NCBI GenBank assembly: GCA_020027215.1
Contig: JAHRAO010000026.1
Location: forward strand, 1 to 48,945
DNA length: 48,945 nt
Reading direction: 5' to 3'
From: Gammaproteobacteria bacterium
GTDB lineage: Bacteria; Pseudomonadota; Gammaproteobacteria; JABABF01; JAHRAO01
Part shown: positions 28,352 through 36,434 of the stretch, piece after piece
Numbering within the stretch: the first letter of the stretch is position 1
How the letters are laid out: the number at the start of each line of letters is the position of its first letter
Notes under the pieces: model-generated
Databases searched by the model: none
What the model was told of the DNA's origin: nothing
What the model saw: the letters and a program-made list of their open reading frames with translations, nothing else
Position numbers and translations under genes: made by a program

Positions 28352-29368
28352 ATGAGTTTACTACCAGAAAGCTTTCGTCTCGAATGGTACTGGATGCTCT
28401 TTATGCTCCCGCTCCCACTACTTATTTATAAATGGGTGCGTCCACGTACGACACAGCATGATGTCCTCCAAGTCCCTTTCTTTCAAACATTAGGGGAACT
28501 CACACCATCCTTGGTCAGTCGTAATACAGCGCACGATTATCGCTTATGGTGGTGGGCAATATGGATATGCGTCATTGTCGCCTCGGCACGCCCGCAATGG
28601 CTAGGCGACGCAATACAATTACCGACCACAGGGCGTGAAATGTTGTTGGCAGTAGATATTTCTGGCAGTATGCAAACCCAAGATATGCAGCAATACGGGA
28701 GTGTCAACAGTCGGTTAGCGGTGGCTAAAGATGTGGTGGGCGATTTTGCCCTCCGCCGACAAGGCGATCGCCTCGGCCTCATTCTCTTTGGAAGCCGCCC
28801 CTATATGCAAATGCCGTTAAGTTTTGATTTAACGACCTTAAACACTTTACTCCAAGAAGCAGAAATTGGTTTAGCAGGCGAAAAAACAGCCATTGGCGAT
28901 GCGATAGGTTTAGCAATCAAAAGGTTGCGCGACCGACCAGCGGATAGCCGGGTATTAATTGTGCTCACCGATGGGCAGGATACGTCAAGTGAATTATCGC
29001 CATTAAAAGCAGCGCAATTGGCGGCTGAACAACAGATAAAAATATATACCATCGGCATTGGTGCTGAAACAATGGTATTGCCGGGGATGTTTTTTAATCG
29101 GCAAGTGAATCCGTCCGCTGATTTAGATGAGGATACGTTGAAAGAAATTGCCCGTTTGACTGGCGGACGTTATTTTAGGGCGCGTGATAAAAACGAATTA
29201 TCCAGCATCTACACTTTCTTGGATCAGTTAGAAGCTATTGCACAAGAAGAAGAAATTTTTCGCCCCGTGCGGCAGCTTTATGTATGGCCATTGACTCTCG
29301 CTTTTTTAATTAGTATCATTTTTGCTATAACGCATTTCCCTATTCCTCATCGTGCCCGATTTCATTGA
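28352..29368 (+). CDS. batA: BatA, von Willebrand A domain membrane protein
   Basis: An inner-membrane protein with a VWA domain of the Bat (aerotolerance) family. Membrane helices lie near residues 12-27, 63-80 and close to the C terminus (about 312-330), with the VWA domain between. The metal-dependent adhesion site is intact: Asp102-x-Ser104-x-Ser106 in VDISGSM, a Thr in [11 protein letters not shown] and Asp in VLTDGQD. It overlaps the downstream batB-like gene by 17 bp. In most genomes it would directly follow moxR-DUF58-DUF4381, which here lie 16 kb upstream. Confidence 0.92.
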
Positions 29369-31055
29369 CCAACTACATTTTATTCGCCCGTATTGGCTAT
29401 ATGCTCTTGTGCCCGTACTGATCCTCTACTGGGGGCTATACAAGTGGCAGCGGAGCGATAAGCAATGGCAACGGTGGGTGGATAACACTTTGTTAGCCGT
29501 GCTGCGTCTTAAGCAGCATAAAACGACAAGTAAATGGACGAGCGCTTTATTACCTTGTGCCTGGAGCATTGCCATAATTGCCTTAGCGGGACCCGCTTGG
29601 CAAAAAATTCCTCAACCCCTCTACATGAAAGAAGATGCTCTGGTCGTCGTCTTTCATTTAGGGATATCGGCTTATGCTGACGACATACGTCCATCGCGTT
29701 TAGTGCGCGCTAAGCATAAAATTAGAGATTTACTTGCCTTACGGCAAGAAGGACTCACTGCTATGGTCGTTTATGCGGGCAGCGCACATACGGTAACGCC
29801 ATTAAGTGACGATACAGCAACTATCCTCTCCATGTTAGATGTATTACAACCATCCCTCATGCCCACCCGCGGAAACGACCTCGTTGCCGCAATAGAAAAA
29901 ACAGTACTCTTGTTGGACAATGCAGCAATTCCAGCACACAATAGTAGTGTATTGCTCTTAAGTGATAGCATTCCACCTGCGGCAATAGAACCGGTCAGCA
30001 CCATGCTCAGGGAGCGCGGAGCGCGTCTCTCGGTAATCGGTATCGGCACTGAAGAAGGTGCACCAGTGAAAGATCCTAATGGGGGATTTGTTAAAGATGC
30101 TTCTGGGGCAATTAAAATTGCCCGCTTAGATCGCTCATCTCTTTCTCAACTAGCGATAAGCAATAACGGACATTACGCCGATATTGAATTAGATGATTCA
30201 GATTTACTAAAACTACTACCCTCCTTACAAAAATCTTTATTGGGCAATCATCAGCGTGAGCAGGATCGGACTTTAGAATTATGGCAAGAAGGTGGATTTT
30301 GGCTTATTTTACCGCTCATTCCATTGATTGGAATGGGATTTCGCCAAAGTCGCTTATTGTTGTGCCTATTCCTGTTACCTTTTTTGATGATAGAAAAGAC
30401 ATGGGCAACAAATAAGAACCCAGAGTGGGATAATTTATTCTTGAATGAACAACAACAAGCCGTTGCGCAGGTTGAGCGCGGCATTAAAGAGTATCGCACC
30501 CAAGATTACGCCGCCGCCGCAACTTATTTTAGTGATGGGACAAGCCCCGAAGCCCATTACAATTACGGCAATGCCTTAGCCCATCTTGGGAAATATGAAG
30601 ACGCTATTGCCGCTTACGACCGCGCACTTGCCTTGCAGAAGGATATGGAAGACGCTATTTTTAATAAAAATTTATTACAATCTTTGCTAAACCAAGACGA
30701 ACAGTCGGCTCAAAATGAGCCACAGCAAGGCGACGACAAGCAACAGTCGGCTCAGAATGAGCCACAGCAAGGCGACGACAAGCAACAGTCGGCTCAAAAT
30801 GAACCACAGCAAGGTGACGACAAGCAACAGTCGGCTCAAAATGAACCACAGCAAGGTGACGACAAGCAACAGTCGGCTCAGAATGAGCCACAGGACAGCA
30901 ATACTGATAGTACAGTCGATCCATTATCCACTCAACTCAATGCAGAGAAAAGCCAAGCGTTAGAACAATGGTTACTGCGCATCCCTGATAATCCGGGGGA
31001 ATTACTCAAACGTAAATTCCTCTATCAATACCATCGTGAACAAGATAAATCTTAA
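29352..31055 (+). CDS. BatB/BatC-type fusion: degenerate VWA domain plus TPR and Gln-rich repeats
   Basis: A 567-residue membrane protein starting at a GTG that overlaps batA. N-terminal helices (about 12-27 and 61-78) are followed by a VWA-like domain, another helical pair (about 315-345), a tetratricopeptide segment (about 398-431, HYNYGNALAHLGKYEDAIAAYDRAL), and four 14-residue repeats plus a partial fifth at residues 451-514. The metal-site residues are lost: His102-x-Gly104-x-Ser106 replaces Asp-x-Ser-x-Ser. It therefore combines BatB and BatC functions in one chain, as seen in other gammaproteobacteria. Partners are BatA and BatD, whose start overlaps this stop by 20 bp. Confidence 0.87.
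   Translation: MPDFIDQLHFIRPYWLYALVPVLILYWGLYKWQRSDKQWQRWVDNTLLAVLRLKQHKTTSKWTSALLPCAWSIAIIALAGPAWQKIPQPLYMKEDALVVVFHLGISAYADDIRPSRLVRAKHKIRDLLALRQEGLTAMVVYAGSAHTVTPLSDDTATILSMLDVLQPSLMPTRGNDLVAAIEKTVLLLDNAAIPAHNSSVLLLSDSIPPAAIEPVSTMLRERGARLSVIGIGTEEGAPVKDPNGGFVKDASGAIKIARLDRSSLSQLAISNNGHYADIELDDSDLLKLLPSLQKSLLGNHQREQDRTLELWQEGGFWLILPLIPLIGMGFRQSRLLLCLFLLPFLMIEKTWATNKNPEWDNLFLNEQQQAVAQVERGIKEYRTQDYAAAATYFSDGTSPEAHYNYGNALAHLGKYEDAIAAYDRALALQKDMEDAIFNKNLLQSLLNQDEQSAQNEPQQGDDKQQSAQNEPQQGDDKQQSAQNEPQQGDDKQQSAQNEPQQGDDKQQSAQNEPQDSNTDSTVDPLSTQLNAEKSQALEQWLLRIPDNPGELLKRKFLYQYHREQDKS
30702..30893 (+). repeat. In-frame tandem repeat, 42-bp unit, four copies plus a partial fifth
   Basis: Units start at 30702, 30744, 30786 and 30828, and a partial copy covers 30870-30893. 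Each encodes QSAQNEPQQGDDKQ. Copies differ only at a few synonymous sites (for example AAA/CAG-flanking A-G changes, GGC/GGT), so the repeat expanded recently or is kept uniform by recombination. Confidence 0.95.
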
Positions 31056-32706: not shown

Positions 32707-33555
32707 TTATGTGAGGCGGTAAATCATATTATCAATTAACCGCGTTTGTGCTAAAACCACCGCAACGAGAATAATGACTTCGGTACTCTGACTGTTTGCT
32801 TCACTCAGGTCGTTAGTATTTCTTATTTCGTAATAATCCACAGTCATATCCGCATTTTGTAACTGTTTTGTTCCCTGCGCACACAAAAGGGTAAAATTGC
32901 GCTCACCTGCTTTTAGTTGCTTTTGTGTATCTACGAGAGTGCGATAAATAACTGGTGCAATACGGCGTGCCGATGGGCTCAAATAGGCATTGCGTGAGCT
33001 GAGTGCTAAACCATCGCTCTCACGCACCGTCTCCACTCCGACCACTTTAACATCCATACACAAATCAATTACGAGTTGCGTAATGAGAATGAATTGTTGA
33101 TAATCTTTTTTACCCAAAAAAACCGTCTCTGGACGCACGATATTCAATAACTTAACGATGATAGTTGCAACGCCCACAAAGTGGTTGGGGCGCGACCGCC
33201 CACATAAAATAGCACCGATATGCGGTATGTTAATGCGCGTATGATGATGAATATTGGGATACAGATCATTTGTTGAGGGCGCATACAAATGCTCGACTCC
33301 TTCTTGAGTCAATAATGCACAGTCCGTTTCGATTGTACGGGGATAACGCGCGTAATCTTCATTTTGACCGAACTGTAATGGATTAACAAAAATGCTCACC
33401 ACTCGCACCGTATCGCTGCGCTGAGCATGGCGCACTAAAGCAATATGTCCGGCGTGGAGGTGTCCCATCGTCGGGATGAAACCAACCAATAAATTGTCCT
33501 TCCGATGTGCGGTCAATGCTTGATGCAAAGAATGATGATTGGAGTGGACAATCAT
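32707..33555 (-). CDS. panC: Pantothenate synthetase
   Basis: Condenses pantoate and beta-alanine with ATP, through a pantoyl-adenylate, to give pantothenate for CoA. The nucleotide-binding IPTMGHLHAGHIALV with its HxGH signature is at about residues 29-43; FVNPLQFGQNEDYARYPRT, FLGKKDYQQF and ALSSRNAYLS are all present. The 282 residues match the family. It begins 3 bp after the deoxynucleoside kinase stop. panB, its usual partner, is absent and its place is taken by the kinase gene. Confidence 0.95.
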   Translation of the reverse strand: MIVHSNHHSLHQALTAHRKDNLLVGFIPTMGHLHAGHIALVRHAQRSDTVRVVSIFVNPLQFGQNEDYARYPRTIETDCALLTQEGVEHLYAPSTNDLYPNIHHHTRINIPHIGAILCGRSRPNHFVGVATIIVKLLNIVRPETVFLGKKDYQQFILITQLVIDLCMDVKVVGVETVRESDGLALSSRNAYLSPSARRIAPVIYRTLVDTQKQLKAGERNFTLLCAQGTKQLQNADMTVDYYEIRNTNDLSEANSQSTEVIILVAVVLAQTRLIDNMIYRLT

Positions 33556-33558
33556 AGA

Positions 33559-34233
33559 TTACAGCATAGAAGGATCAAAATGATGGCGGGGATGGCGCAT
33601 ATTGCTCAGTTGGGTAATGAGTTGTCCATAGGTTTCATTGTCAACAGCAAAATTCACATTGCTGGTGTTGATAATTAACACGGGAGATTCATCGTAGCTG
33701 CGAAAAAAGCGACTATACGCAGCCGTAATTTTCTCCAAATAGGCACGTTTAATATGTTTTGTCTGCTCCTCGGCACGGTTATAGATGCGTTGTAACAAAA
33801 TATCCACCGAAGCATGCACATAAATGACGAGGTCAGCGGGAGGTATGGTGTATTGCACCAGTTCATTAATCCGCCGATAAATTTCATTCTCATCTAAATT
33901 GAGGTTGATTTCAGTAAATATTTCACTCTTCTGCCACATAAAGTCGGCAACCCATGCATCGGTAAACAAATGATTTTGTCGGGCGTTTTGAAACTCTTCT
34001 GCCTGTCGCGCACGCTGAAAAAGAAAAAATAACTCCGTCGCTAATGCCGCGCGGGCATTTTTACGATAAAAATCATGCAAAAATGGGTTCTTCTGCCATT
34101 CTTCTAAGAGGAGTTGGTACGATAAAGTTGCCGCCAAGCGCTTTGCTAGAGTAGTTTTGCCACTACCGATCGGCCCTTCTACGATAATATATCGTGGCAG
34201 GTTTTCAGATTGAATGTTATCTGAGCGCACCAT
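33559..34233 (-). CDS. Deoxynucleoside kinase (dGK/dAK family)
   Basis: Phosphorylates deoxynucleosides in salvage. The P-loop VEGPIGSGKTTLAKRL is at residues 18-33. It is followed by LLLEEWQKNPFLHDFYRK, TELFFLFQRARQAE with the nucleoside-binding FxxQ-type segment, and the C-terminal Arg-rich lid (RIYNRAEEQTKHIKRAYLEKI). The 224 residues match bacterial members. Whether it prefers deoxyguanosine, deoxyadenosine or another base cannot be read. It starts inside folK (17-bp overlap) and ends 3 bp before panC, so the three genes form one unit. Confidence 0.88.
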   Translation of the reverse strand: MVRSDNIQSENLPRYIIVEGPIGSGKTTLAKRLAATLSYQLLLEEWQKNPFLHDFYRKNARAALATELFFLFQRARQAEEFQNARQNHLFTDAWVADFMWQKSEIFTEINLNLDENEIYRRINELVQYTIPPADLVIYVHASVDILLQRIYNRAEEQTKHIKRAYLEKITAAYSRFFRSYDESPVLIINTSNVNFAVDNETYGQLITQLSNMRHPRHHFDPSML

Positions 34234-34711
34234 TTATTTTGATTGGGATGTCATCAATTAGCGTCTGCCTCAGATATGCCCCCACCGATAACCCATTGGG
34301 CAAAATTAAATTTGGGGCAATATCCGCTAAGGGATATAAAACAAAATTGCGCTCACTCAAACGCGGATGCGGAATGGTGAGCCTTGGCGTATCAATACGC
34401 TGATCCCCATAAAAGAGTATATCTAAATCAAGTGTCCGCGCTCCCCAGCGTTGATAGCGCGTTCTCCCTTGTGCATCTTCAATACGTTGGAGTTGGCATA
34501 AGAGGTCAAAAGGCGTCAGTGAAGAGCAGATAGCAACAACAGCGTTACAATAATCGGGTTGCGTGCCGGGACCTATGGCGCGGCTACGATAGTATGCCGA
34601 TATGGAGCATACATCTATCCATTGATTGTGTTCTAATGCCTGTAAGGCGCATTTTAATTGCCGCTGTGGAGAATCTAAATTGCTTCCTAATCCTATATAC
34701 GATATAGTCAT
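34217..34711 (-). CDS. folK: 2-amino-4-hydroxy-6-hydroxymethyldihydropteridine pyrophosphokinase
   Basis: Transfers pyrophosphate from ATP to the pterin precursor in folate synthesis. The motif YIGLGSNLDSP lies at the N terminus and RWGARTLDLDILFYGDQRIDTPRLTIPHPRLSERNFVLYPLADIAP is the diagnostic HPPK signature. I chose the ATG at 34711, which has a weak GGA Shine-Dalgarno and gives 164 residues (E. coli 159); the frame is open to 34765. The 3' end overlaps the deoxynucleoside kinase by 17 bp. Confidence 0.94.
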   Translation of the reverse strand: MTISYIGLGSNLDSPQRQLKCALQALEHNQWIDVCSISAYYRSRAIGPGTQPDYCNAVVAICSSLTPFDLLCQLQRIEDAQGRTRYQRWGARTLDLDILFYGDQRIDTPRLTIPHPRLSERNFVLYPLADIAPNLILPNGLSVGAYLRQTLIDDIPIKINGALR

Positions 34712-34807
34712 TGATGTCCGCTGATCAATTGATAATGGAGTATGTGCGCTATAGGGGGAGTGCACAAATGTGCATGATGTGTTTTGTTAGACAATAGTTG
34801 CCACAAA

Positions 34808-35752
34808 TCAACTTTTTGTTGCGCGATTTTTCTTACGCGAGATATTAAACCGTTGGCGGCGATCCCATAAACATTTGCGGCTAATCCCTAATTTTTTAGC
34901 AAGATCGGCTTCATTCATTGAATCTTGATGTTCCAAAATAAATTTTTGGAAGTACTCCTCTAATGATAAAGGTTCGTCATCACTCGTTTGTCCTGCCATT
35001 TTATCTATTGTCCGTTCGGTGCTTGTCGGCTCCCCACTGAACCCCGTGTAATGCGATAAGAGTGAAGCATCAATCACCTGCTTCGTCGTCAATAATATAC
35101 AATTGCGCATCACATTAATTAATTCCCGCACATTTCCTGGCCAACTGTATTGGCAGAGCATTTGGGTCGCATCGCGACTTAAACGCAAGGCAGGTTGATG
35201 ATTATTTTCTTCTTCTAATACTTTTTGCACCAATGCAAGAATATCATTTTTACCTCTCACCGCCAATTTGGGAATGTCTAAAACAATACTGCTAATGCGA
35301 TAATAAAGATCGCGGCGAAATACAGTGCTTGAAGAAAGAAAATCTACAGGGCAGTTCGCTGTAAAGATAAGCCGAACCAAATTCATCTGTTGCACTTGGT
35401 CTATGCAATAAACAATTTCTTTTTGTATTTTAGTCGCACATTCATCAATATTATCAATAACCAGCGTGCCCTCTTGCGTATCAACCATATCGAGCGCAAA
35501 ATGATCCATGACCGAGGGGTCAATGACACACAACTTGCCGGGTCGTTGGCTCTGTTGGTGAATAATACGTGCTAGTAGGGATTTTCCACTGCCCGTTTCA
35601 CCGCAAATTAAAACAGGGTAATTTTTCTGTGCGACTTCTTGTGCCATTAAGCGAATAGTATTCATCGCTGGGCAATCGCCGACCAATATATCGGTAAGGT
35701 TATTAATATCGTATTTAGAAAATTTATTTGTGACTAATGCGTTTTCAGGCAT
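34808..35752 (-). CDS. NtrC/CbrB-like regulator lacking the receiver domain and the GAFTGA loop
   Basis: A 314-residue protein with a sigma-54-activator type AAA+ domain and a C-terminal Fis helix-turn-helix. Walker A is GETGSGKS (51-58), Walker B is TLVIDNIDE (96-104), the arginine-finger region is FRRDLYYRISSIVLDIP (145-161), and WPGNVREL is at 204-211. The Fis-type helix-turn-helix is at 280-304 (NEADLAKKLGISRKCLWDRRQ). Only 37 residues separate the Walker motifs and the GAFTGA loop that contacts sigma-54 is missing; there is no N-terminal receiver domain. The gene lies between dksA and folK, where Pseudomonas carries cbrAB. It probably acts without sigma-54, as TyrR does. A GGAG Shine-Dalgarno lies at the dksA 3' end. 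Confidence 0.85.
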   Translation of the reverse strand: MPENALVTNKFSKYDINNLTDILVGDCPAMNTIRLMAQEVAQKNYPVLICGETGSGKSLLARIIHQQSQRPGKLCVIDPSVMDHFALDMVDTQEGTLVIDNIDECATKIQKEIVYCIDQVQQMNLVRLIFTANCPVDFLSSSTVFRRDLYYRISSIVLDIPKLAVRGKNDILALVQKVLEEENNHQPALRLSRDATQMLCQYSWPGNVRELINVMRNCILLTTKQVIDASLLSHYTGFSGEPTSTERTIDKMAGQTSDDEPLSLEEYFQKFILEHQDSMNEADLAKKLGISRKCLWDRRQRFNISRKKNRATKS

Positions 35753-35756
35753 TGAT

Positions 35757-36434
35757 TTATTCTCCAGATTCTTGTCGCTCTTTCACTTCAACTAATGTCT
35801 TACAATCAAAACAAAAATGAGCAATAGGGCGAACTTCTAAACGCTGTAAGCCAATATCGTCTCCGCAATTTTTACAATAGCCGTATTGGCGGTTATTAAT
35901 CTCTTTCAGTGCTTCATCAATACGATTCATCAATTTTTGCTCGCGGTGACGCGTGCCAGCACCAAAACTAAATGCCTCTTCACGTGTTGCTTTATCCGCC
36001 ATATCGGCAAGCCCAGTTTCTTCCATTTGAATGTATTGCGCTGTATATTCATTTTTTTTAAGAAGTGCTTGTTTCCATTTTTCTAAAATGCGGCGAAAAT
36101 GAGTTCGTTGCCGCGCATTCATATAGGACTCAGGTTTCTTACTCTCATACGGAGTAAAATGAGTGAAAGTATCTAATAAATCTAATGAAGATTTATGGGC
36201 AAACTGTTGTGAAGTATTGACTTTTTTGCTTGTTTTTGTTTTACGCGGGCGAGGGGACGGACTCTTTTTTGTCTTTTTCGCAACGCTGGGCTGAGCGGAA
36301 TTTGCCGCTTTCTGAACTTTTTTGTTATCTACTTTACCTTGCGAAGTTTTTTTTTCAGCTGTTCTACTTACAGCTGATTTTGTCGGACGCACAGGCTTTG
36401 TGCTTCTTTTTTGTGATGAGGTTGTTGTAGCCAC
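35757..36434 (-). CDS. dksA: RNA polymerase-binding factor DksA with an N-terminal basic extension
   Basis: Binds in the secondary channel of RNA polymerase and, with ppGpp, resets transcription in the stringent response. From residue 82 the sequence aligns with E. coli DksA: SSLDLLDTFTHFTPYE, YMNARQRTHFRRILEKWK, coiled-coil tip aspartates Asp144 and Asp147, and zinc-finger cysteines Cys187, Cys190, Cys208 and Cys211. Residues 1-80 are an added Lys/Ser/Thr/Pro-rich, disordered, histone-like tail, making 225 residues instead of 151. The start is a GTG. A perfect palindrome lies between the likely -10 and the start. The downstream regulator gene begins 4 bp after the stop. Confidence 0.95.
   Translation of the reverse strand: MATTTSSQKRSTKPVRPTKSAVSRTAEKKTSQGKVDNKKVQKAANSAQPSVAKKTKKSPSPRPRKTKTSKKVNTSQQFAHKSSLDLLDTFTHFTPYESKKPESYMNARQRTHFRRILEKWKQALLKKNEYTAQYIQMEETGLADMADKATREEAFSFGAGTRHREQKLMNRIDEALKEINNRQYGYCKNCGDDIGLQRLEVRPIAHFCFDCKTLVEVKERQESGE

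Follow-up and report, generated by a model that had tools for sequence, protein, structure and literature searches.

There is little documentation of how bacteria can dispense with sigma-54 and still keep the regulons that depended on it. A gene lying between dksA and folK in a 48,945-nucleotide contig of a gammaproteobacterium (JAHRAO010000026.1, assembly GCA_020027215.1; "the window" hereafter means this whole stretch of DNA) bears on this question: what can an NtrC-type EBP do that has neither a receiver domain nor a GAFTGA loop? The preliminary description of the locus proposed a CbrB descendant that had become sigma-54-independent in the manner of TyrR. We consider it probable that the protein is the CbrB ortholog of this bacterial order, remodelled after loss of CbrA and RpoN into a DNA-binding regulator that would act on sigma-70 transcription independently of both phosphorylation and sigma-54.

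A 314-residue regulator with two deletions

The ORF at 34808-35752 is real and lies on the minus strand of the window, as do the protein motifs and the dksA-to-panC genes located below. Its 314-residue product starts at an ATG 4 nt past the dksA stop codon, and ORF, Pfam, alignment and tree data point to a receiver-less, GAFTGA-less CbrB ortholog. Only Sigma54_activ_2/Sigma54_activat (split in two) and AAA_lid_14 exceed the Pfam cut-offs, and the claimed absence of the receiver was borne out by Pfam and alignment alike. The short spacing between the Walker motifs had also been read correctly, as 37 residues separate Walker A from Walker B, compared to 59 in 77/77 CbrBs, NtrC and PspF and 52 in TyrR. 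In the alignment this corresponds to the loss of ~22 residues between residues 82 and 95 (junction at 35468-35509), including the GAFTGA (L1) segment that had been reported missing. A second deletion, of 9 residues between L125 and V126 (junction at 35375-35380), takes out the hairpin 'RKVGSVQSRKVD'. This is L2, the pre-sensor-1 hairpin of bEBPs, which has a role in sigma-54 remodelling. As the two in-frame deletions are separate, the frame is intact and the same loss recurs in an independent relative (G001, the only other genome of the order examined; 1.7 Mb, 95% complete), a sequencing error is very unlikely to be the source of the loop loss.

The AAA+ motifs had been described as intact, which is correct for Walker A (GETGSGKS, residues 51-58; 35579-35602) and the arginine-finger segment (FRRDLYYR, residues 145-152; 35297-35320), and sensor II (WPGNVRE, residues 204-210; 35123-35143) is intact too, but it is not correct for Walker B (TLVIDN, residues 96-101; 35450-35467), where DN stands for the usual DE and an Asn replaces the catalytic Glu at the position of PspF E108. 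Judging from these residues, a protein that binds ATP and hydrolyses it poorly best fits the combination. An AlphaFold2 model (pLDDT 82) comprises a bEBP AAA+ core and a C-terminal helical HTH, and Foldseek matched it to the AAA+ domains of NtrX, NtrC1, ZraR, FlrC, FleQ and VpsR.

A CbrB-type HTH in the dksA-folK slot

The C-terminal HTH (LSLEEYF...GISRKCLWDRRQRFNISRK, residues 262-308; 34829-34969), first taken for an intact Fis domain, reaches only 12.1 bits with Pfam Fis (cut-off 22), yet scores 100.4 bits with a CbrB-HTH HMM that gives 6.1 bits for TyrR, 7.0 for DhaR and -1.0 for NtrC. Searching with the HTH alignment retrieved 80 named gammaproteobacterial loci (Halieaceae, Pseudohongiella, Cellvibrionaceae, Spongiibacteraceae, Litchfieldella and MAGs), 77 of them with a full-length protein. 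This comparison set contains no Pseudomonas CbrB, and its link to the named protein runs through syntenic relatives and the literature.

The gene order of these relatives is dksA-cbrA-cbrB-pcnB-folK-dNK-panC; gluQ would lie between dksA and cbrA, as the preliminary description gives for Pseudomonas. Upstream of cbrB, dksA was found in 68/69 and cbrA in 61/69 loci with sufficient upstream DNA; downstream, pcnB follows in 74/77 loci, and then folK, dNK and panC in most. The slot between dksA and folK thus holds CbrB in relatives, as the preliminary description had it for Pseudomonas. The window has kept the order dksA-X-folK-dNK-panC: dksA (35757-36434) ends 4 nt before the regulator and probably forms one operon with it, whereas on the other side come folK (34217-34765; probable ATG at 34711), the deoxynucleoside kinase gene dNK recognised by Pfam (33559-34233) and panC (32707-33555), the last gene of the conserved block. 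The pcnB gene has moved away and is encoded elsewhere in the source genome (C36). The 96 nt that separate the regulator from the likely start of folK are too few for a CrcZ-type gene, and Rfam CrcZ gave no match in the relatives or the window. We also observed that panB is absent from the folK-dNK-panC block (33555-34233), that the window DksA carries an N-terminal extension of ~95 residues rich in Lys, Ser and Thr, and that in a BatB-like TPR protein at 29352-31055 the sequence QSAQNEPQQGDDK is repeated in tandem about five times close to the C-terminus.

Phylogeny agrees with this placement when both domains are used. The AAA+HTH tree calculated without L1 groups the window and G001 proteins with CbrB (93/86), and in the AAA+HTH tree the window protein falls inside a starred 25-row CbrB clade (97/92), in both cases on a very long branch. 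The AAA+ domain taken by itself was rejected as proof of orthology: it leaves the window protein unplaced, on a branch of 5.6 changes per site that is drawn to DhaR, probably by long-branch attraction. Orthology therefore rests mainly on the HTH and genomic position, and the proposed CbrB descent is largely supported by the HTH, synteny and the two-domain tree, with the AAA+ domain alone silent on it. The separation from CbrB in the AAA+-only tree would also be expected of a chimera between an unrelated AAA+ EBP domain and a CbrB HTH, or of some other EBP that came to lie beside dksA. We regard such an origin as quite improbable, given that the CbrB slot and the CbrB HTH are shared, that the AAA+ misplacement was flagged as an effect of long branches and that the protein enters the CbrB clade with better sampling.

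Domain-specific constraint in genomes without RpoN and CbrA

The source genome of the window (G000) is 1.53 Mb in size and 97% complete in 46 contigs. RpoN, which the preliminary description wanted checked together with CbrA, is not detected in it or in G001 by either of two domain models (PF04552 and PF04963), whereas the same models recognise RpoN in 45/47 genomes bearing CbrB. CbrA is likewise undetected in both genomes, which yielded histidine-kinase-core matches only; those of G000 are PhoR-like and CpxA/EnvZ-like proteins in PhoBR-like and CpxAR/OmpR-like pairs. The window protein is the sole recognisable NtrC-type EBP of G000, the other PF00158 matches (L002 and L004) being weak and L004 being the window's own MoxR-type AAA+ gene. 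With L1, L2, the Walker-B Glu and sigma-54 itself all missing, the protein cannot remodel a sigma-54 closed complex or open sigma-54 promoters, from which we infer that its action is sigma-54-independent. That it is still a sigma-54 activator whose rpoN partner was missed seems hardly credible to us. The assembly is indeed short of completeness and fragmented, and two Halieaceae with a canonical GAFTGA CbrB and a sigma-54 promoter (L078 and L081, genomes G086 and G088) also lack an RpoN match, so that either their assemblies are incomplete or they lost rpoN very recently. However, neither the two missing loops nor the changed Walker-B Glu would be explained in this way, and two independent genomes are RpoN-less by two models, in G000 with a single NtrC-type EBP left.

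The two domains of the protein have diverged to very different extents. Mean identity to the 77 CbrBs is 33.0% for the AAA+ domain and 76.3% for the HTH (ratio 2.31), and the corresponding values for the G001 homolog are 35.9% and 82.4% (ratio 2.29), while the highest such ratio among the CbrBs themselves is 1.49. Compared with each other, the window and G001 proteins are 76% identical in the HTH and 27% in the AAA+ domain. These identities indicate that the HTH is under CbrB-like constraint and that the ATPase is not, so that DNA binding rather than sigma-54 remodelling would be what selection maintains. The same constraint argues for a DNA-binding function and against a dying gene. Decay in a shrinking genome, leaving no present function, might be suspected from the small genome, the long branch and the loss of the cognate kinase, the sigma factor and the usual sRNA target; it is unlikely, as the frame has stayed intact in two divergent families of the order and the HTH has remained 76-82% identical to CbrB while the AAA+ domain diverged.

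What remains of the ATPase differs between the two lineages. The single G001 homolog (424 residues, L115:1537-2811, minus strand, with pcnB directly downstream) also lacks receiver and GAFTGA, but it has kept L2 and lost its ATP site, as the Walker A Lys (GALGSERA), the arginine fingers (FLEELLLC) and the sensor II Arg (WPGNMKE) are gone. By alignment, loss of the sigma-54 interface is thus common to both lineages and the ATPase appears to have eroded differently in each, arguing that a nucleotide-dependent role is not conserved across the order. It is conceivable, and we give the idea limited credence, that the AAA+ part is a relic with no function left and the protein a passive repressor that occupies operators through its HTH with no need for ATP. 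The dead ATP site next to an HTH 82% identical to CbrBs in G001 speaks in its favour, as does a 171-residue receiver-HTH protein with a CbrB-type HTH from the 1.1-Mb genome G105 (L161:6435-6947), from which the entire AAA+ domain is missing. Against it, Walker A, sensor II and the arginine fingers of the window protein are intact despite great divergence elsewhere, and its AAA+ fold is modelled confidently.

In the remodelled regulator that we favour, loss of the CbrA kinase and RpoN would have gone along with deletion of the receiver and both sigma-54-engaging loops (L1/GAFTGA and L2). The conserved CbrB HTH would bind operators in a phosphorylation-independent fashion, the residual AAA+ core could serve as an oligomerisation module that binds ATP and hydrolyses it poorly, and the protein might repress sigma-70 RNA polymerase or help to recruit it at its target promoters. 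With only 4 nt between the genes, it would probably be co-expressed with the stringent-response factor DksA. Loss of the receiver is likely tolerable, as CbrB of P. putida hardly depends on phosphorylation and its monomers bind TGTTAC/GTAACA subsites that are not palindromic (PMC6296734). Genome-wide searches of G000 and G001 with three patterns for CbrB operators gave no convincing site, and the negative outcome in G000 counts against this reading: TGTTAC/GTAACA arrangements in G000 occur at or below control counts, with a single, intragenic match. In G001 a TGTTAC-N13-GTAACA element (L126:1501-1525) closely precedes a DAHP synthase ORF, its count being at chance level.

Graded relatives and known EBPs that act without sigma-54

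CbrAB has been described as unique to Pseudomonadaceae (PMC8871633), and the present loci extend a CbrAB-type locus well beyond that family. The cbrB-pcnB gap of 66 loci with a canonical G[AS]FTGA CbrB contains a sigma-54 promoter (TGGCAC-N5-TGC), CbrB-type subsites ~80-120 nt upstream of the promoter and many AAnAAnAA motifs downstream, and an apparent CrcZ-type sRNA gene, outside the Rfam models, thus occupies this gap in many non-Pseudomonadaceae (L035-L114). In seven loci with altered GAFTGA, all from genomes with RpoN, the GG-N10-GC promoter core is lost in four (L037, L043, L058 and L091) and kept in three (L044, L110 and L111), versus 0/66 losses in canonical loci (Fisher p 3e-5, uncorrected for kinship). 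The CbrBs of the four loci read DAFTGA, DAFPGA or GSFIGA, and L037 carries TGGTATAGT, an extended -10-like sequence, in place of the promoter; some of the seven substitutions could be MAG errors. The phosphoacceptor Asp is missing from the CbrBs of L043, L057, L058 and L061, with no CbrA found alongside, and has become N or G at L057, L058, L061, L065, L071 and L096, where the interval from dksA to cbrB yielded no CbrA. For the class as a whole, ~10 changes are needed to account for the CbrB-type proteins that no longer have a canonical GAFTGA, with a bootstrap range of 9-11 and a minimum of 7 imposed by the starred branches. CbrB-type regulators adjoin an acetyl-CoA synthetase-like gene at L148, L151 and L162 (the last truncated at a contig end), and both GAFTGA and the Walker-B DE (now SA) are lost at L148 and L151.

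From this gradation we tentatively suggest that CbrB-type regulators have repeatedly crossed from sigma-54 to sigma-70, with the order of the window at the far end. Losses would have accrued stepwise (the kinase; the phosphoacceptor; GAFTGA by mutation or deletion; the sigma-54 promoter of the CrcZ-type target; then the receiver, L2 and rpoN), the HTH being retained throughout in a nucleotide-gated or passive sigma-70 regulator. If true, extant genomes would show promoter and protein changing together one stage at a time. The lineage of the window appears to have retained the DNA reader of an EBP and dropped the sigma-54 engine, and since relatives offer partial stages, the switch can be tested with natural CbrB variants. 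The papers found that deal with CbrB and GAFTGA contain, judging by titles and abstracts, no report of a sigma-54-independent CbrB. As far as these sources go, sigma-54-free EBPs are already known, whereas three things are new: the addition of CbrB to the few EBPs that have been uncoupled from sigma-54, the deletion of both loops in combination with the loss of rpoN, and the existence of graded relatives.

Compared to CbrB proper, the window protein shares the HTH sequence, the slot between dksA and pcnB/folK and an AAA+ core with Walker A, arginine fingers and sensor II, but it is without receiver, GAFTGA loop and L2 hairpin, its Walker-B DE is DN, and its system has no CbrA, RpoN or downstream CrcZ-type gene. 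The GAFTGA-less CbrB-type proteins of L140, L149, L148, L151, L043 and L091 resemble it in their CbrB HTH and in a replaced, deleted or mutated L1, whereas their receiver is still present and their AAA+ core is less eroded, those of L043 and L091 residing in RpoN-positive genomes; by alignment the window protein is the most remodelled among the CbrB-types compared. EBPs without GAFTGA that act at sigma-70 promoters include TyrR, DhaR and HupR (PMC3162934), and the likeness to TyrR drawn in the preliminary description is a fair functional analogy, although TyrR is no close relative. TyrR and DhaR of E. coli likewise combine an EBP-type AAA+ domain, GAFTGA lost partly or wholly, with the use of sigma-70 (PMC3162934), yet they have other HTHs, N-terminal ligand domains and an RpoN-positive host, and TyrR has kept L2 along with its longer Walker spacing. 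The GAFTGA-less NtrC proteins of Rhodobacter and Caulobacter and VpsR are NtrC-type, have L1 deletions and serve sigma-70 promoters (PMC10274813), but differ in keeping the receiver. Rhodobacter NtrC requires ATP binding and not hydrolysis, VpsR requires no ATP (PMC10274813), and Caulobacter NtrC depends on both Walker motifs in a host that retains GAFTGA EBPs.
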